From positions 1 through 22,383 of IMG/VR virus record IMGVR_UViG_3300025151_000336: DNA of 22,383 bases. The stretch is one strand, 5' to 3'. The notes beneath the pieces are model-generated. The model made no database searches and was not told the DNA's origin. It saw nothing but the letters and a program-made list of their open reading frames with translations. This document shows, in pieces, positions 3,432 through 12,934 of the stretch; the first letter of the stretch is position 1; each line of letters starts with the position of its first letter. Made by a program: the position numbers and the translations under genes. The DNA is from a virus.

Positions 3432-4897
3432 TGTCTGACCTGGTTATTCGCAAGAAGAATGAAGTTTATGTCACAGTCAAAGCAGAACCGCATGTCCATC
3501 AAGAATTATCAGATCATTTCACATTTGATGTTCCTGGTGCAAAGTTCATGCCTCAATATCGTAGCAAGTATTGGGATGGAAAGATAAGACTGTATAGTTC
3601 ACATACAGGAGAAATCTATGTTGGATTACTTGACAAAGTAGTTGCATGGGCAAAGAATTATGGATATTCAGTAGAATTTGAAAATAATAAGTTTTACGGA
3701 ACTCCATTTGAAGAAAACAAGATGATCTCTTATCAAGGGGTCAAGGAATACATGACTCGTATTGCTCGATTCAAACCAAGAGACTATCAAGTTGATGCAG
3801 TCTTTGATGCTCTAAAATATAACCGCAAACTTCTAATCTCTCCTACTGCCTCTGGTAAGTCACTGATGATTTACTCTGTGGTGAGATACTTTGCAGAGAA
3901 AGGAAAGAAGATTCTTCTCGTTGTTCCCACCACATCTCTTGTAGAGCAGATGTTTAAAGACTTTGAAGACTATGGTTGGAATGCAGATGAATATTGCCAT
4001 AAGATCTATTCTGGTAGAGAAAAGACAAATGAATATCCTGTAACGATTACTACTTGGCAATCTATCTACAAGTTACCAAGACCATTCTTCAAAGATTTTG
4101 AAGTAGTGATTGGTGATGAGGCACACTTGTTTAAGTCTAAGTCTCTGGTCAGTATCATGACCAAGATGGATAGTGCCAAGTATAGATTTGGTTTTACTGG
4201 CACCTTAGACGGCACACAGACGCATAAATGGGTGTTAGAAGGATTGTTTGGTCCATCATACAAAGTTACACAAACAAAAGAATTGATTGATAAGGGACAT
4301 CTGTCACAATTACAGATTCACGTTCTTCTTCTCAAGCATGATTCATATCAGTTTGAAACTTATGAAGATGAAGTTCAATATATTATTGGACATGAGAAGA
4401 GAAACAATTTTATCAAAAACTTGGTATTAGATCTGAAAGGAAATACTCTTGTTCTCTTTAGTAGGGTTTCTACCCATGGTGAACCACTTTACGAATTAAT
4501 AAATAATTCTGTGAAGGGTGACCGAAAAGTATTTTATGTTCATGGTGGCATTGATGCTCAAGAAAGAGAAAGAGTAAGAGAAATCACAGAACAAGAACAA
4601 GATGCAGTTATTGTTGCTTCATATGGAACTTTCTCAACAGGCATCAATATTAAAAATCTTCATAACGTAATCTTTGCATCACCATCCAAATCAAGAATTA
4701 GAAACTTACAATCTATTGGTCGAGTTCTCAGGAAAGGAGACAAAAAGAATCAAGCAGTGTTATATGATATTGCTGACGATACCACTTATAAATCAAAAAA
4801 GAATTACACATTAAATCATCTAGTCGAAAGAATTAAAATTTACAACCAGGAGAAATTTAATTATGAAATCGTACCAGTTAATCTTAAATCAAAATGA
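3431..4897 (+). CDS. uvsW: UvsW DNA/RNA helicase (superfamily 2)
   Basis: This 488-aa protein is close to T4 UvsW (503 aa). An N-terminal substrate-binding domain (about 1-90, with SKYWDGKIRLY) precedes a two-domain SF2 motor. Motif I is SPTASGKS near 137-144, motif Ia is VVPTTSLVEQM, motif II is DEAH at 229-232, motif III is FTGTL, and motif VI is QSIGRVLRKGD. UvsW unwinds R-loops and branched DNA, and in T4 it shuts down origin-dependent replication in favour of recombination-dependent replication. The ATG at 3431 overlaps the uvsY stop and is preferred to the TTG at 3428. It lies between uvsY and an Sm-like gene with no gaps, implying co-translation. Confidence 0.97.
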   Translation: MSDLVIRKKNEVYVTVKAEPHVHQELSDHFTFDVPGAKFMPQYRSKYWDGKIRLYSSHTGEIYVGLLDKVVAWAKNYGYSVEFENNKFYGTPFEENKMISYQGVKEYMTRIARFKPRDYQVDAVFDALKYNRKLLISPTASGKSLMIYSVVRYFAEKGKKILLVVPTTSLVEQMFKDFEDYGWNADEYCHKIYSGREKTNEYPVTITTWQSIYKLPRPFFKDFEVVIGDEAHLFKSKSLVSIMTKMDSAKYRFGFTGTLDGTQTHKWVLEGLFGPSYKVTQTKELIDKGHLSQLQIHVLLLKHDSYQFETYEDEVQYIIGHEKRNNFIKNLVLDLKGNTLVLFSRVSTHGEPLYELINNSVKGDRKVFYVHGGIDAQERERVREITEQEQDAVIVASYGTFSTGINIKNLHNVIFASPSKSRIRNLQSIGRVLRKGDKKNQAVLYDIADDTTYKSKKNYTLNHLVERIKIYNQEKFNYEIVPVNLKSK

Positions 4898-5283
4898 ATG
4901 AAGAATTCTACGCAATAATAAAATTAATGTCTAGTGAAGAAATCTTTGCTAAGGTTACTCCTTGTGAAGAAGAGAGTAGAACTTTATTATTGCTAGATAA
5001 CCCAGTTACTTTTGAAAATATAGTCATCAGACAGTTGGGAGCAGTTGCTATCAAGGTAGAACCGTGGTTGACTACAGGTAATGATTCAATTATTGTAATT
5101 GATATGGATAAAGTAATTACAATATCAGAAGTCTACGATGAACAGTACATTTCTGTATATAAGAAATACTTAAGAGATAAAGACAGAGACTCTAATCAAA
5201 CAGAAGTTAATGAAGAGATGGGATTTTTATCATCAATATCTGATGCAAGAGTATTCTTAGAGAAACTATATAAAGGTAGCTAA
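4894..5283 (+). CDS. Sm-like small protein (paralog A), unknown function
   Basis: This 129-aa acidic protein starts inside the uvsW stop (ATGA). Residues 8-20 (IIKLMSSEEIFAKV) are followed by a DNPVTF turn, an EPWL segment and IIVIDMDKVITI. This order is shared with three other genes in the window, at 15901, 18746 and 19038. The pattern of five short strands, a Gly/Ser-Glu-Glu turn and an Asn-Pro turn resembles the LSm/Sm beta-barrel. No paralog has a readable catalytic motif. The C-terminal 40 residues (YKKYLRDKDRDSN onward) are helical and specific to this copy. RNA binding is conceivable but unproven. This is the last gene before a short non-coding gap and promoter. Confidence 0.7.
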   Translation: MNEEFYAIIKLMSSEEIFAKVTPCEEESRTLLLLDNPVTFENIVIRQLGAVAIKVEPWLTTGNDSIIVIDMDKVITISEVYDEQYISVYKKYLRDKDRDSNQTEVNEEMGFLSSISDARVFLEKLYKGS

Positions 5284-5332
5284 GCCATCTCTATGAACCC
5301 TGACAGAGTTATTCTACAGATGGAATCTACTC

Positions 5333-5362
5333 TTGTCAAGCCCTTTGATGATATGCTATAAT
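5333..5362 (+). promoter_or_regulatory. Sigma-70-type promoter for the gp55-gp47-gp46 operon
   Basis: TTGTCA (5333-5338) and TATAAT (5357-5362) are 18 bases apart. A TG at 5354-5355 one base before the -10 makes an extended -10 element. It lies in the only gap over 100 bases in this part of the window and 28 bases before the gp55 start. Use by host RNA polymerase early or mid infection is inferred. Confidence 0.78.
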
Positions 5363-5390
5363 GTAAACACAATTATAGGAGAATCATGAA

Positions 5391-5861
5391 ATGTCCAGAA
5401 AGAAGTCAGAACATTATGTAAACAACAAAGAATTTTTAGAAGCACTGATCGTTTACAGAGCAGAAGTAAAAAAAGCACAAGAAGCAGGAGAACCACTCCC
5501 ACGCATTACTAACTATCTTGGTGAGTGCTTCTTAAAGATTGCCACTCACTTGTCTTACAAACCAAATTTTGTTAATTACATGTTCCGTGAGGACATGATC
5601 TGTGACGGTATTGAAAACTGCGTCCAGTACATTAAGAATTTCGATCCAGCAAAGTCTAGCAATCCATTTGCATATTTTACTCAAATCATTCACTACGCCT
5701 TCCTGAGGAGGATTCAGAAGGAGAAACGTCAGATGGATATCAGAACCAAGATTATTGAGAGATCTGGATTTGATGAAGTCTTCTCAAGTGATGGTGACAT
5801 CTACAATACTTCTGACTATAATACCATTAAGGAAAACATTCAGTCTAAACTTTATTCATGA
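5391..5861 (+). CDS. gp55: Late-promoter sigma factor gp55
   Basis: This 156-aa protein (T4 gp55 is 185) directs host RNA polymerase to late promoters together with the sliding clamp. Residues 64-112 carry the recognisable sigma region-2-like segment, with an acidic DMICDGIENCVQYI helix, NFDPAKSSNPFAYF, then the basic helix RRIQKEKRQ. As in T4, no region 4 is present. The start ATG at 5391 has a GGAGA SD at 5378-5382. The ATG at 5386 is out of frame and quickly terminated. The gene lies directly behind the sigma-70-type promoter, which fits the need to make this factor before late transcription, and its stop overlaps the gp47 start. Confidence 0.95.
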   Translation: MSRKKSEHYVNNKEFLEALIVYRAEVKKAQEAGEPLPRITNYLGECFLKIATHLSYKPNFVNYMFREDMICDGIENCVQYIKNFDPAKSSNPFAYFTQIIHYAFLRRIQKEKRQMDIRTKIIERSGFDEVFSSDGDIYNTSDYNTIKENIQSKLYS

Positions 5862-6901
5862 AAATTGCCCTGATAACTGATACACATTATGGTGCTCGTA
5901 AGGGCAGTAAAATATTTCATGAGTTCTTCCAAAAATTCTATGATGATATTTTCTTTCCAACTCTCAAGGAGAGAGATATCAAAGTAGCAGTCCATTTAGG
6001 TGATGCCTTTGATAGTCGTAAGTCTATCGACTTCTGGGCATTAGACTGGGCAAAAACAAATGTGTATGATAAGTTTCAGGAACTAGGAATCAAGTTATAT
6101 AACATCGTTGGTAATCATGATGCCTACTACAAGAATACCAACGATGTTAATTCGGTAGATTGTTTGTTGAGTCAATACAAGAATGTAATTCCAGTTTCTC
6201 AACCAAAAGAGTATAAGGTTGGTGGTGAGAACATGCTTCTCGTTCCTTGGATATGTCAAGATAATCAAGAAGAAACTTTTGAAGTTCTTAAAAAATCTAA
6301 AGCAAAAGTTGTCATGGGACATCTGGAGTTGAATGGATTTGAGGCATACAAAGGTCAGGTGATGGATCATGGTCATGACCCATCTATTTTTAGAAAGTTT
6401 GATCTTGTGTATTCCGGACATTATCACACACGGTCTAATGATGGAAAGATTTTTTATCTGGGTAATCCTTACCAGATGTTTTGGAATGACGTAGACGATA
6501 AGAGAGGATTCCACATCTTTGATACTGAAACTCATGAACTTGAGTTCATCGAAAATCCATATACTATATTTGAAAAGATTTATTATGAAGATAATAATTA
6601 CAAAACTTTTAATCCATTACCATACGCTGGAAAGATTGTTAAAGTAATTGTTCGTAAGAAATCTAGTCAGGCGGACTTTGAAAAGTTTATTGATAAGATT
6701 GACAAAGCAGGATGTGTTGATTTAAAGGTTATTGAAAACTTTGCAATCCATGATGAAGAGGTTTCATTGACTGGTGAAGAGTGCGAAGACACTTTGACAT
6801 ATTTAAATAAATACATTGACGACTCAGATTTTGATCTTGACAAGGACATTGTTAAAAACTTAATGAGGGAAGTGTATCGAGAAGCTTGCGAGATGGAATA
6901 A
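5858..6901 (+). CDS. gp47: Recombination nuclease subunit gp47 (Mre11/SbcD family)
   Basis: This 347-aa protein (T4 gp47 is 339) has the complete calcineurin-like phosphoesterase set. Asp8-x-His10 is in ITDTHYG, Asp49 in HLGDAFDSRK, Asn86-His87-Asp88 in VGNHDAYY, His155 in MGHLELNGF, and His188-x-His190 in SGHYHTR. With gp46 it resects DNA ends to give 3' tails for UvsX and also takes part in host DNA breakdown in T4. The C-terminal third is the expected capping and partner-binding region. The start is coupled to gp55 (ATGA overlap), and a TAATG junction follows. All metal ligands look intact. Confidence 0.97.
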   Translation: MKIALITDTHYGARKGSKIFHEFFQKFYDDIFFPTLKERDIKVAVHLGDAFDSRKSIDFWALDWAKTNVYDKFQELGIKLYNIVGNHDAYYKNTNDVNSVDCLLSQYKNVIPVSQPKEYKVGGENMLLVPWICQDNQEETFEVLKKSKAKVVMGHLELNGFEAYKGQVMDHGHDPSIFRKFDLVYSGHYHTRSNDGKIFYLGNPYQMFWNDVDDKRGFHIFDTETHELEFIENPYTIFEKIYYEDNNYKTFNPLPYAGKIVKVIVRKKSSQADFEKFIDKIDKAGCVDLKVIENFAIHDEEVSLTGEECEDTLTYLNKYIDDSDFDLDKDIVKNLMREVYREACEME

Positions 6902-9332: not shown

Positions 9333-11438
9333 ATGGCAGTCAACCACGAAATCAAGTCTCAACTTGCCAAACTGCTTGCTACTGAAGACCTGGTGGTCGA
9401 GCACAAGCAAGTTGAAACTGCTTGCTTCAATGTCCAAACCAGAGTCTTGACACTCCCATTGTGGGAACACGCAAGCGGTGTTGTCTATGACATGTTGGTT
9501 GGTCATGAGGTTGGTCATGCTCTCTACACTCCAGATGAGGACTGGTATCTAGAGAATAAAATTCCTCCTCAACTTGTCAATGTTGTAGAGGATGCTCGTA
9601 TTGAAAAACTGATGAAGCGTCGGTATCCTGGTCTGGCAAAGACTTTCTATAATGGATACGGTCAACTTTCTGAGCAAGATTTTTTCCAACTTGAGAATGA
9701 AGATATCTCCAAGATGAATCTTGCTGATAGAATTAATCTTTATTTTAAGATTGGCAATTTTATTGATATCATTTTTAGTCTTGATGAAAGCATCCTTGTT
9801 AGAAAGGTAGCAGATGCAGAAACTTTTCAAGATGTTCTTGAAGTTGCATCAGAGATTTATGCGTACTGTAAGCAGGAGAGTGAAAGACAGCAGAAAATTC
9901 AACTCGATAAATTAGAACATCAGCAGTCTGGAACTGATGGAGAAAAAGAATCTAACAAATCTAATCAAGATTCTGAAGAAAGTGATGCAGATTTGGAAAC
10001 TCCTTCTTATAATGGGGAATCAGATGAGAGTGATGTAGAACCAGATCCTCAACATGGAATGGGAGGTGGTCAGAATTTTGATCCTGATGTCATCAAAACC
10101 ATGCAATCTTTTGAAGATGGCATGAAAGAATTGGCAAATATGAATGGATTCGAGAATGTCTATGCTGAATTACCTAGTGTAAATTTAGATCAGATTATTG
10201 TCAGCAATGAAGAAGTGCATGGTCGCTGTTCATTTGAGTGGGACGATGCTCACCCAGAAACATTTGAAGAAGTTGATGATCTGTTTGCTAAGTTCAAAAA
10301 ATCTGCACAGAAAGAAGTTAACTATTTGGTAAAGGAGTTTGAATGTAAGAAGTCTGCCAGCGCATATGCTCGTGCGACAACTTCTCGCACAGGAGTTCTT
10401 GATTGTACCAAACTTCATACTTACAAGTACAATGAGGATTTGTTTAGGAAAGTTACTGTGATCCCTGATGGAAAGAATCATGGTCTGATCTTTATTCTTG
10501 ATTGGTCTGGTTCGATGGGAGATGTAATGCTAGATACTTGCAAGCAACTTTTCAATCTCATTTGGTTCTGTAAGAAAGTCAATATTCCTTTTGATGTCTA
10601 TGCATTCACAAATGAGTATCCTCGTGAGAATATGGCGTATTCTTATGAGAAAAAAGATGGTGTGGTAGTTGTTCCTGAATACTTCTCTCTTCTGAACCTG
10701 TTTACTCACAAGACAAAGGGGAGAGATATTGAGAAACAGATGAAGAATGTCTTCCGAATGGCGTATTCCTTCAGGCACTCCTGGGGAGTTGCTTATCGCA
10801 TTCCAATTGGTATGAGTCTCTCTGGAACTCCTCTCAATGAGGCGTTAATAACTCTTCATAAGTTGATTCCTACATTCAAGAGTACAAATAATGTAGAAAA
10901 AGTTCAGTGTGTAATTCTGACCGATGGAGAAGCACCTCCACTTCGCTATCATAAACTTTTTGTTGGAGGTAGATTTGCAAATGGTACAGAGGATTATATT
11001 GGTGTCAATTCTCTTGGACACAATTCATTCATTCGTAATCGCAAAACTGGTCATTGCTATACTCTTGATGTTCCCTGGTATGATTTCAGTAACGTGTTGC
11101 TGAGGGATCTACGTAATTCCTTTCCAAATACTAATTTTATTGGTATTCGTGTTCTTGCACCTCGTGATGCCGCTCCCTTCATACGTCAATATTCTTGCAG
11201 TGCTAAGAATTATGATGTCATGCACAGGAATTGGAAAAAGAACAAGTCATTTGCTATTACATCTTCTGGGTATCACAAATACTTTGGACTATCCTCTAAA
11301 GTTGTGAGTCAGGAGAGTGACTTTGAAGTCCAGGAAGATGCAACTAAAGGACAGATCAAAAGTGCATTTGTGAAAAGTCTTCGGACTAAGAAGATGAATA
11401 AAAAAGTGCTAAGTGAGTTCATTGAACTTATTGCATGA
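9333..11438 (+). CDS. CobT-like protein: HExxH metallopeptidase domain plus VWA domain
   Basis: This 701-aa protein has an N-terminal domain with His58-Glu59-x-Gly-His62 in VGHEVGHALYTP, a zinc metallopeptidase HExxH motif. It is followed by VVEDARIEKLMKRR, whose acidic residues could be the third ligand. Residues about 185-245 are an acidic, disordered linker. A von Willebrand A domain follows with a complete MIDAS: Asp390-x-Ser392-x-Ser394 (DWSGSM), Thr499 in SGTPLNEA and Asp531 in LTDGE. The layout resembles CobT and DUF2201-type VWA proteins, which work with MoxR/CobS AAA+ ATPases; such an ATPase is encoded at 11858. Literal cobalamin synthesis is doubtful, since no CobN is seen here. A substrate-remodelling or proteolytic complex is the better guess. 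No signal peptide is visible, so it is probably cytoplasmic. Confidence 0.85.
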   Translation: MAVNHEIKSQLAKLLATEDLVVEHKQVETACFNVQTRVLTLPLWEHASGVVYDMLVGHEVGHALYTPDEDWYLENKIPPQLVNVVEDARIEKLMKRRYPGLAKTFYNGYGQLSEQDFFQLENEDISKMNLADRINLYFKIGNFIDIIFSLDESILVRKVADAETFQDVLEVASEIYAYCKQESERQQKIQLDKLEHQQSGTDGEKESNKSNQDSEESDADLETPSYNGESDESDVEPDPQHGMGGGQNFDPDVIKTMQSFEDGMKELANMNGFENVYAELPSVNLDQIIVSNEEVHGRCSFEWDDAHPETFEEVDDLFAKFKKSAQKEVNYLVKEFECKKSASAYARATTSRTGVLDCTKLHTYKYNEDLFRKVTVIPDGKNHGLIFILDWSGSMGDVMLDTCKQLFNLIWFCKKVNIPFDVYAFTNEYPRENMAYSYEKKDGVVVVPEYFSLLNLFTHKTKGRDIEKQMKNVFRMAYSFRHSWGVAYRIPIGMSLSGTPLNEALITLHKLIPTFKSTNNVEKVQCVILTDGEAPPLRYHKLFVGGRFANGTEDYIGVNSLGHNSFIRNRKTGHCYTLDVPWYDFSNVLLRDLRNSFPNTNFIGIRVLAPRDAAPFIRQYSCSAKNYDVMHRNWKKNKSFAITSSGYHKYFGLSSKVVSQESDFEVQEDATKGQIKSAFVKSLRTKKMNKKVLSEFIELIA

Positions 11439-11444
11439 TAAATA
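11437..11444 (+). promoter_or_regulatory. Candidate late promoter (GATAAATA)
   Basis: GATAAATA overlaps the TGA stop (11436-11438) of the CobT-like gene and lies 24 bases before the ATG at 11469. It is flanked by a direct repeat TTGCAT (11431-11436 and 11446-11451). Its match to the T4 late element and its spacing make it the best late-promoter candidate in the window. Confidence 0.65.
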
Positions 11445-11468
11445 TTTGCATAGTAATAGGTATCAAAA

Positions 11469-11786
11469 ATGTCTAGATTTGGAGATCTAGTGGGTGGAAA
11501 ACAGTCTGCACCTGCTCCTGCTGCACCATCTGCACCAGCACCAGTAGCAGTACCAACTCCTCCTGCTGAAGCAGCAGCACCTGATCTTGGTGAGGACACA
11601 ACCAAGTATGAGGAAGTAATCGAAGAAGAACTTGCTGAATCATACGAAAGTGATGTATCACTTCAAGATATGTCAAAGAAAGAACTTGAGGAGTATGGTC
11701 GAACTGTCGGTATTGAACTTGACAGAAGACACTCCCATAGCAGGTTGGTCAAAGAATTGAAAGCGTACCTAGAAGACAATTCCTAA
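11469..11786 (+). CDS. Ala/Pro-linker protein with C-terminal SAP/HeH-like domain
   Basis: This 105-aa protein has a short N-terminus (MSRFGDLVGGK), an Ala/Pro-rich flexible stretch (about 13-41), an acidic segment, and a C-terminal helix-extension-helix unit (about 66-102). That unit reads DMSKKELEEYGRTVGIELDRR, then SRLVKELKAYL, in two parts. It resembles HeH/SAP or Rho-N folds that bind nucleic acid, often found in phage head and terminase-associated proteins. A late-type promoter and a private terminator make it a single-gene late unit, suggesting a virion or assembly role. Whether it interacts with the flanking CobT/CobS-like pair is unknown. Confidence 0.75.
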   Translation: MSRFGDLVGGKQSAPAPAAPSAPAPVAVPTPPAEAAAPDLGEDTTKYEEVIEEELAESYESDVSLQDMSKKELEEYGRTVGIELDRRHSHSRLVKELKAYLEDNS

Positions 11787-11797
11787 ACTGTCACAGG

Positions 11798-11820
11798 GGG
11801 CACCACACGGTGCCCTTTCT
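11798..11820 (+). terminator. Rho-independent terminator
   Basis: GGGCACC (11798-11804) and GGTGCCC (11809-11815) form a perfect 7-bp stem with a four-base ACAC loop and a TTTCT tail. The T run is short, so termination may be partial. It closes the one-gene late unit. Confidence 0.85.
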
Positions 11821-11824
11821 GCTG

Positions 11825-11830
11825 TATAAT
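11825..11830 (+). promoter_or_regulatory. Possible -10 box (TATAAT) before the CobS-like gene
   Basis: A perfect TATAAT follows the terminator by five bases and precedes the ATG at 11858 by 27. No TTGACA-like -35 is found 16-19 bases upstream, where the terminator stem lies. It could be an activator-dependent or phage-modified promoter for the long replication operon. It is reported because the whole unit from 11858 to 18102 otherwise lacks a visible promoter. Confidence 0.45.
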
Positions 11831-11857
11831 AACTTCAGTTGAAACAAACACCTGATC

Positions 11858-12934
11858 ATGTCTCTTTCCATTGACTACATCCGCACTTCACTTCAAGAAG
11901 TTTACGGTGAGTCTGTCACGAGTGCTGAGATCCGTGCATGGTGTGCCATGAATGGCACTAATTATCAGTCTGTCACTAAAAAACTTGATGACTACAAAGT
12001 TGGTCGTGGTCGTTGGAATTTGAGCGTGACTGAACAACTTGAGCAGACCTATCAGGCACCTGCTGCCATGCCAGCAATCGAACAAAACCTTATCCCTGAA
12101 AAAGATGATTCCTTCGTCAAGTTTGGCAATTTCGCTGATGTTAAAAAAATTATTCAGTCCCGTGTATTCTACCCTACGTTTATCACGGGTCTCTCGGGTA
12201 ATGGTAAAACATTTTCTGTCGAACAAGCGTGCGCCCAACTCGGACGCGAACTCATCCGTGTAAACATTACTATTGAAACTGATGAGGATGATCTTATTGG
12301 TGGTTTCCGTCTTGTCGATGGGGCAACTGTTTGGCATAACGGACCTGTCGTGGAAGCACTCCAGAGAGGAGCAGTCCTGCTACTCGATGAAATTGACCTT
12401 GCTTCCAACAAGATTCTCTGCCTCCAGTCCATCCTTGAAGGTAAGGGTGTGTTCTTGAAGAAGATTGGTAAGGTCATTACGCCTACGCCTGGTTTCCAAA
12501 TTCTCGCCACTGCTAATACCAAGGGTAAGGGTTCTGACGATGGTCGTTTCATCGGCACCAATGTGCTCAACGAAGCATTTCTGGAGCGATTCCCAGTAAC
12601 CTTTGAGCAAGAATATCCTACTGTTGCAACTGAAATTAAGATTCTTAGTAAACTGTGTTCTGATGCTGATTTCTGCAAGCGACTTGCTGACTGGGCAGAC
12701 ATCATCCGCAAGACTTTCTACGATGGTGGTATTGAAGAAATCATCTCCACTCGTCGTCTAGTTCACATTGTCAAGGCATACAATATCTTTGGCGACAAAG
12801 CAAAAGCGATTGAAGTTTGTGTCAATCGATTTGATGATGAGACCAAGCAGGCATTTATGGAACTGTATGACAAAGTGGATGTTGACTTCAAGATGCCATC
12901 TGAAGATACCATTGACACATTGACTGCTGAGTGA
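11858..12934 (+). CDS. cobS: CobS/MoxR-like AAA+ ATPase
   Basis: This 358-aa protein has an N-terminal helical domain (about 1-60) that looks like a small winged-helix/DNA-binding fold, then an AAA+ core. Walker A is GLSGNGKT at 111-118. IETDEDDLIGGFRLVDG resembles the MoxR/CobS insertion before the helix. Walker B is LLLDEIDLAS with Asp177-Glu178. Sensor-1 is ATANTKG, and FLERFPV carries a probable arginine finger. Cyanophage homologs are usually labelled cobS after the cobaltochelatase subunit; the sequence supports the ATPase family but not the substrate. Its natural partner is the VWA/metallopeptidase at 9333. It heads the replication operon, separated from it by the SAP-like gene and a terminator. 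Confidence 0.9.
   Translation: MSLSIDYIRTSLQEVYGESVTSAEIRAWCAMNGTNYQSVTKKLDDYKVGRGRWNLSVTEQLEQTYQAPAAMPAIEQNLIPEKDDSFVKFGNFADVKKIIQSRVFYPTFITGLSGNGKTFSVEQACAQLGRELIRVNITIETDEDDLIGGFRLVDGATVWHNGPVVEALQRGAVLLLDEIDLASNKILCLQSILEGKGVFLKKIGKVITPTPGFQILATANTKGKGSDDGRFIGTNVLNEAFLERFPVTFEQEYPTVATEIKILSKLCSDADFCKRLADWADIIRKTFYDGGIEEIISTRRLVHIVKAYNIFGDKAKAIEVCVNRFDDETKQAFMELYDKVDVDFKMPSEDTIDTLTAE

Follow-up and report, generated by a model that had tools for sequence, protein, structure and literature searches.

The window analysed here, a 22,383-nt stretch of viral DNA, is a 22 kb fragment of a T4-like cyanophage, and all features described below lie on its plus strand. An open reading frame at 9333..11438 encodes a 701-aa zincin-VWA protein resembling CobT, NorD and CbbO, which matches PHROG_459 with an E-value of 1e-262 and is annotated 'peptidase' in cyanophages. 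A second reading frame at 11858..12934 encodes a 358-aa AAA+ ATPase of the MoxR/CobS/CbbQ class (PHROG 249), annotated cobS. An earlier note, made from the sequence alone, had described both reading frames together with an HEVGH motif at residues 58-62, an acidic linker, a VWA domain with a complete MIDAS and an AAA+ core, and each of these was confirmed. Between the two genes lies a small ORF (11469..11786; 105 aa) with a Pro/Ala-rich N-terminus and an HeH/SAP-like C-terminus. It was considered as a conserved component of the machine and rejected, since only 16 of 80 IMG/VR loci, plus nine phage records, carry it, making it optional.

Relatives of the VWA protein were collected with search patterns free of the HExxH motif, and among the resulting 87 proteins identity falls to roughly 35% or below. 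H58, E59, H62, N83, E86, D87, R89, D390, S392, S394, T499 and D531 are invariant in 87 of 87. An AAA+ gene follows downstream on the same strand in 80 of these loci; the remaining seven stop 3-1730 nt past the VWA gene, where the contig or locus ends. The co-occurrence across cyanophages expected by the earlier note was thus found, and named records holding both genes came to 365 for Synechococcus, 61 for 'Cyanophage' and 24 for Prochlorococcus, figures that are totals and not matched per record. At six cellular loci, too, an AAA+ gene lies next door. Patterns used for a separate scan of genome contigs included HExxH and EDxRI, and its hits were left out of the conservation evidence. Beyond the close relatives, HExxH is retained in the CobT-like proteins of phages from many other families, including 27 full-length SSU5-type phage homologues and those of RHEph10, CRP-810, T5S1, Cyrano, B1VFA, OC, Mosig, JPW and Phendrix. 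It is gone from two phage homologues, nickie and BUCTxx99, in which the pair is still present. Scans of IMG/VR with the CRP-810 and JPW CobT queries returned no relatives.

The N-terminal domain (residues ~1-184; 9333..9884) was characterized by AF2, Foldseek and hhalign and appears gluzincin-like. HEVGH (9504..9518) would provide two zinc ligands, H58 and H62, and the general base E59, and the sequence NVVEDARIE (residues 83-91; 9579..9605), on the predicted glutamate helix, would provide E86 as the third ligand. In the AF2 models, of which that of residues 1-198 has a pLDDT of 90.4, HExxH falls within helix 49-65 and E86 within helix 79-97, so that HEVGH is predicted to sit on an active-site helix with the glutamate helix after it, the arrangement known from gluzincins. 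The top PDB folds for the 1-198 model were gluzincins, and 17 of the 18 top folds were HExxH-type proteins with probabilities up to 1.00, although with Foldseek E-values of 0.1-1 none is significant individually. Jannalysin, selecase, abylysin, ArdC, IrrE/PprI, M61 and M32 are among these folds. The gluzincin signature in sequence, H58, E59 and H62 with E86 downstream, is present throughout the 87 relatives. Taken together, the invariant catalytic residues and the predicted fold bear out the metallopeptidase motif of the earlier note, and give moderate support to a real zincin-like domain rather than a chance HExxH; such a domain would be expected to bind zinc and cut proteins. A link to DUF2201_N, also raised in the earlier note, was rejected because profile similarity was absent: there was no Pfam match, and the hhalign match (E-value 0.04) spanned 16 residues that do not include the motif. 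Searches of PDB sequences with the phage VWA protein and profiles derived from it gave no match.

Downstream of this domain, residues 185-272 (9885..10148) form an acidic, partly disordered linker whose 88 residues include 22 Asp/Glu and 7 Lys/Arg; in the full-length AF2 model (pLDDT 80) the pLDDT falls below 50 at residues 198-248. The best PDB match of the full-length model was NorD of NorQD (9qhd_G), covering the VWA/finger region (Foldseek, E 1.4e-5). Residues ~337-376 (10341..10460), directly before the MIDAS strand, were assigned by position as a putative pore finger, in which T353, G354, L361, Y364, D369, F371 and K373 are invariant in all 87 proteins. The MIDAS itself consists of the invariant DWSGS (residues 390-394; 10500..10514), in which D390, S392 and S394 follow the D-x-S-G-S pattern, together with T499 (10827..10829) and D531 (10923..10925).

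The partner ATPase carries Walker A (GLSGNGKT, residues 111-118; 12188..12211) and Walker B (LLLDE, residues 174-178; 12377..12391), both conserved in 81 relatives, as well as sensor 1, FLERF and ISTRR. It matched Pfam AAA_5 (E 1.1e-17), CbbQ_C (E 2.6e-4; 21.6 bits against a cut-off of 20.6), PHROG_249 (1e-137) and the CobS sequence in the PDB (1.7e-21). An AAA_5 core with Walker A and B, sensors, an Arg finger, CbbQ_C and an adjoining MIDAS VWA gene places it in the MoxR class. These motifs, the MIDAS and the pairing throughout the relatives support the proposal, already in the earlier note, of an AAA+/VWA remodelling pair.

Profile comparisons were used to relate the N-terminal domain to those of known adaptors. 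Against the CbbO-like N-domain, hhalign gave an E-value of 1.7e-9 and a score of 64 (shuffle maximum 24); CbbO is encoded in a RuBisCO-CbbQ-CbbO operon. The catalytic Glu is absent from 28 of 28 CbbO-like sequences, which have H-x-x-x-H instead and keep both His residues and the Glu ligand position. Against other phage CobTs the E-value was 1.6e-16, and the bridge from these to true CobT gave 7.8e-9 with a score of 61 against a shuffle value of 22; Pfam CobT matches the N-terminal region of the SSU5 protein, HEVAH included, at 2e-37. True CobTs lack HExxH and have an HHDxxxH pattern in its place. Compared directly with true CobT, the cyanophage domain reached a profile score of 23, near the shuffle maximum of 22-24, so the CobT link rests on the bridging phage and planctomycete sequences; the kinship with CobT anticipated in the earlier note therefore holds through these sequences and not in direct comparison. 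Sequence comparison did not find homology with the NorD N-domain, and a PDB sequence search with the CbbO N-domain profile had no match. These comparisons lend moderate support to homology of the N-domain with those of true CobT and CbbO, and equally moderate support to loss of the catalytic residues in the latter two. Since the nickie and BUCTxx99 pairs, CbbO and CobT all lack HExxH, the N-domain can evidently serve without catalysis.

Gene neighbourhoods were inspected as a set of cases. The pair lies near gp45/gp44 in cyanophages, near the clamp gene in phage OC, and near a DNA polymerase gene in nickie, RHEph10, BUCTxx99, SSU5, T5S1, Cyrano and B1VFA. Replisome neighbours in several unrelated phages favour a role in the replication phase over virion assembly or B12 synthesis, and suggest that the target acts in the DNA-replication phase of infection. 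One paper examined for expression timing mentions neither gene.

Taken together, we consider it probable that the two proteins form a remodelling machine of the MoxR-type AAA+/VWA class, in which the VWA adaptor bears a gluzincin metallopeptidase domain competent for catalysis. It is more likely to remodel and cut proteins than to make vitamin B12, because the zinc-protease site is intact here and lost in the relatives that serve B12 synthesis and rubisco activation. A mechanism modelled on that of NorQD would have the AAA+ protein form a hexamer, with the VWA finger in its pore and the C-terminus against the hexamer face; the MIDAS metal would bind an acidic residue of the target, and ATP cycles would rotate the VWA domain and thereby extend the acidic linker. 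The loosened target might then be cleaved by the N-domain, with zinc held by H58, H62 and E86 and E59 acting as the base.

A cobaltochelatase role, proposed by Liu et al. in 2021 (PMC8651126) and likewise in the older cobS literature, would have the phage pair dock on host CobN and boost cobalamin, for example for a B12-dependent ribonucleotide reductase. The earlier note had set such a role aside for want of CobN. There is indeed none in the 22 kb window, but the argument is weak, as Prochlorococcus and Synechococcus genomes with related loci encode CobN (G010 and G011; 1651 and 1740 bits). Pfam CobT is absent from those genomes, and the phage protein is remotely homologous to CobT in its N-domain and its VWA domain, both of which suit this role. 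Against it, the AAA+ protein scored 72.8 bits with the CobS model (TIGR01650), far below the cut-off of 558.55, the VWA protein matched neither CobT model (TIGR01651, Pfam) above cut-off, and the motif missing from true CobTs is invariant in the phages. Phages infecting Vibrio cholerae, Salmonella and E. coli, hosts not known to encode CobN, carry CobT-like/CobS pairs as well. The invariant catalytic residues and these apparently CobN-free hosts make us doubt a cobalamin role more strongly, and we regard it as unlikely.

Another role, as a chaperone-protease for structural proteins in virion assembly or maturation, was proposed for group 2.2 jumbo phages (Iyer et al. 2021) and has an analogy in the MoxR/VWA pair of Acidianus two-tailed virus. 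A peptidase domain joined to a remodeller would suit structural-protein processing, and several T4-like head proteins are cut, albeit by gp21. In cyanophages and unrelated phages alike, however, the pair is located in replication/recombination modules and not in those for head or tail, and its wide occurrence in phages with differing virions speaks against a single structural substrate, which leaves this role quite unlikely. Metal delivery, in which the motor would insert the metal of H58, H62 and E86 into an apo-enzyme such as a phage ribonucleotide reductase without cleaving peptides, is suggested by relatives that insert metals (NorQD iron, CobST cobalt; PMC13036017) and by the ligand positions kept in CbbO. 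We judge it very improbable, given that E59, needed for peptide hydrolysis and not for metal binding, is invariant, and that CbbO with its ligands kept activates rubisco and inserts no metal.

The preferred reading, a protease-remodeller, is less novel than the earlier note supposed, a phage MoxR-vWA pair with an N-terminal metallopeptidase (Iyer et al., PMC7824862) and phage cobST clusters (Liu et al., PMC8651126) having both been published in 2021. The former shares the architecture of a MoxR gene beside a metallopeptidase-vWA gene, matched here by description and not against the ASV44728/ASV44729 sequences; it comes from group 2.2, whereas cyanophages are group 2.1 of Iyer et al. The latter, together with the work on the cyanophage core gene cobS (PMC3037559), concerns the identical gene pair in cyanophages, read there as a cobaltochelatase with the 'peptidase' label called a mistake; the invariant zincin motif points the opposite way. 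Marine cyanophages have cobS in their core gene set, and it is routinely tallied among the auxiliary metabolic genes for vitamin B12. Should the pair be a protease-remodeller, both these tallies and the idea of a B12 supply would be mistaken for the phages concerned.

What is new here is a zincin domain common to CobT, CbbO and the phage proteins, mostly decayed. The published view holds the N-domains of the NorD and CbbO adaptors to be unrelated (PMC9976466); a homologous N-domain would correct it with regard to CbbO, CobT and the phage proteins at least, and offers a testable origin for AAA+/VWA activators. Tentatively, MoxR/VWA machines with this N-domain may have originated as an AAA+-driven metalloprotease, with phages keeping a protease active during DNA replication, and CobST and CbbQO descending from it through separate losses of the protease, the domain now serving in target binding or as a lever. 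Minigluzincins (jannalysin, abylysin, selecase) have a similar predicted fold of a small sheet, HExxH helix and glutamate helix, a similarity that is statistically weak, but are small stand-alone peptidases with neither VWA nor AAA+ partner. NorQ/NorD, for which the finger-in-pore arrangement has been demonstrated (PMC13036017), shares the VWA and finger fold, the MIDAS and the AAA+ class, and differs in inserting iron into nitric oxide reductase. CobS/CobT shares the AAA+/VWA pairing and, via phage CobTs, a homologous N-domain, but CobT has HHDxxxH and the window proteins fall far under both cut-offs. The rubisco activase CbbQ/CbbO shares the MoxR ATPase, the homologous adaptor N-domain and the C-terminal MIDAS VWA, and differs in the missing catalytic Glu.

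The window is a T4-like cyanophage fragment in which genes for the gp23 major capsid protein and UvsW helicase precede the pair, as do, just before it, a Metallophos ORF and an SMC-type ORF at the gp47/gp46 positions; the gp45 sliding clamp, speD and the gp44 clamp loader follow in that order. In agreement with the earlier note, the ORF at 9333-11438 encodes a 701-residue protein with HEVGH (58-62), an acidic linker and a complete MIDAS VWA domain, and the ORF at 11858-12934 a 358-residue MoxR-class AAA+ ATPase. A 105-residue ORF between them (11469-11786), with a Pro/Ala-rich N-terminus and a HeH/SAP-like C-terminus, is optional, being found in a minority of relatives; among PHROG families it weakly matched prohead protease inhibitors (E 0.01-0.02). 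In the Prochlorococcus phage P-SSM4, pcyA (3677-4366 of that locus) is inserted between both pair genes.

Homologues of the VWA protein (87) were collected from an IMG/VR scan, using patterns without the HExxH motif, and from named phages. H58, E59, H62, N83, E86, D87 and R89 were identical in all 87, as were MIDAS residues D390, S392, S394, T499 and D531 and, directly ahead of the MIDAS strand, G354, L361, Y364, D369 and F371. Motifs of the AAA+ protein were also conserved among relatives. The expected co-occurrence across cyanophages was borne out: the AAA+ gene lies downstream on the same strand at 80/87 loci, and at the other seven the sequence ends 3 to 1730 nt past the VWA gene. Totals for both genes matched in named records (Synechococcus 365, 'Cyanophage' 61, Prochlorococcus 24). 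The cyanophage-type gene is also found on contigs attributed to genomes of Bacteriovorax, Euryarchaeota, Rhodopirellula, Chloroflexi and Latescibacterota; these are probably phage contigs binned into MAGs.

AlphaFold2 modelled the full-length VWA protein with pLDDT 80 (56-sequence alignment), and its top PDB match was NorD of the NorQD complex (1.4e-5), via the VWA part. Residues 1-198 alone (pLDDT 90.4) were predicted to form a small sheet, with HEVGH in helix 49-65 and E86 in helix 79-97. HExxH-type proteins, among which we count jannalysin, abylysin, selecase, ArdC, IrrE/PprI, M61 and M32, made up 17 of the 18 top Foldseek matches which, despite weak E (0.1-1), lends moderate support to a predicted gluzincin domain.

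In an hhalign comparison, this N-domain matched that of CbbO-like proteins with a probability of 96.3, an E-value of 1.7e-9 and a score of 64, against a maximum of 24 in 40 column shuffles; one of these proteins is encoded in a RuBisCO-CbbQ-CbbO operon. Their H-x-A-x-H-type sequences align to HEVGH, with the Glu missing in 28/28, and the EDxRxE helix is retained. True CobT from 21 alphaproteobacterial genomes has HHDxxxH-type sequences and mostly retains ExxRxE. The suspected link to CobT was not significant when the cyanophage and true CobT profiles were compared directly, but held through phage CobTs with intact HExxH (RHEph10, SSU5, CRP-810, T5S1, Cyrano, B1VFA) and a few cellular proteins, which matched the cyanophage domain at E 1.6e-16 and true CobT at E 7.8e-9, with shuffle controls passed. 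The Pfam CobT model matched the SSU5 N-region (2e-37) and a planctomycete HECAH protein (1e-13; PDB CobT, 8e-25) whose gene adjoins an AAA+ gene. Together, the CbbO and bridged CobT matches indicate that CobT and CbbO carry a decayed form of the N-domain that phages and some bacteria have kept intact. Since the decay patterns of the two differ, we infer that the predicted protease site was lost independently from an intact ancestor. In nickie (Pseudomonas phage) and BUCTxx99 (Stenotrophomonas phage) the pair is kept and HExxH lost, as in cellular CobT. The N-domains of NorD and CbbO have been termed unrelated (PMC9976466), and the papers we consulted contained no statement of an N-domain common to the phage proteins, CobT and CbbO.

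A published model, in which the phage pair uses host CobN for cobaltochelatase, is possible for cyanophages because host-type genomes have CobN and lack CobT. However, the window proteins fall below the CobS and CobT equivalog cut-offs, and phages of Vibrio cholerae, Salmonella and E. coli, hosts that are not known to have CobN, carry comparable pairs as well. Related pairs are ATP-driven remodellers, with a finger-in-pore twisting mechanism described for NorQD (PMC13036017). The retained catalytic Glu, invariant in the cyanophage proteins but missing from CbbO and CobT, speaks for a cutting function in the cyanophage version. Gene neighbourhood, from individually inspected cases, points to a role in DNA replication: clamp and clamp loader lie near the pair in cyanophages and Ochrobactrum phage OC; in nickie, RHEph10, B1VFA, BUCTxx99, SSU5, Cyrano and T5S1 a DNA polymerase gene is no more than a few genes away; and a primase is nearby in JPW. 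Among such inspected cases are nine loci from unrelated phage families at which CobT-like/CobS-like pairs lie close to a DNA polymerase, clamp or primase gene. A phage or host protein acting in the replication phase is a tentative candidate for the target. A peptide deformylase gene lies just upstream of the pair in OC and Pelagibacter phage Mosig.

CobS-like AAA+ genes are also present in 236 Staphylococcus phage records; in phiSA012 (gene at 4737-5855 of the locus), the one record inspected, neither of two neighbours checked had a VWA motif of the DxSGS MIDAS kind. In Salmonella, such a gene with a non-VWA neighbour (4052-5939 of that locus) lies beside ssb and bet in a genomic island of the conjugative-element type.

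Pairing of MoxR with a vWA protein that has an N-terminal metallopeptidase was proposed earlier for jumbo phages other than these (PMC7824862), and a published catalogue lists the cyanophage genes as cobST (PMC8651126); the pair therefore belongs to an already known kind, to which this study adds the shared N-domain and its decay in well-known machines.
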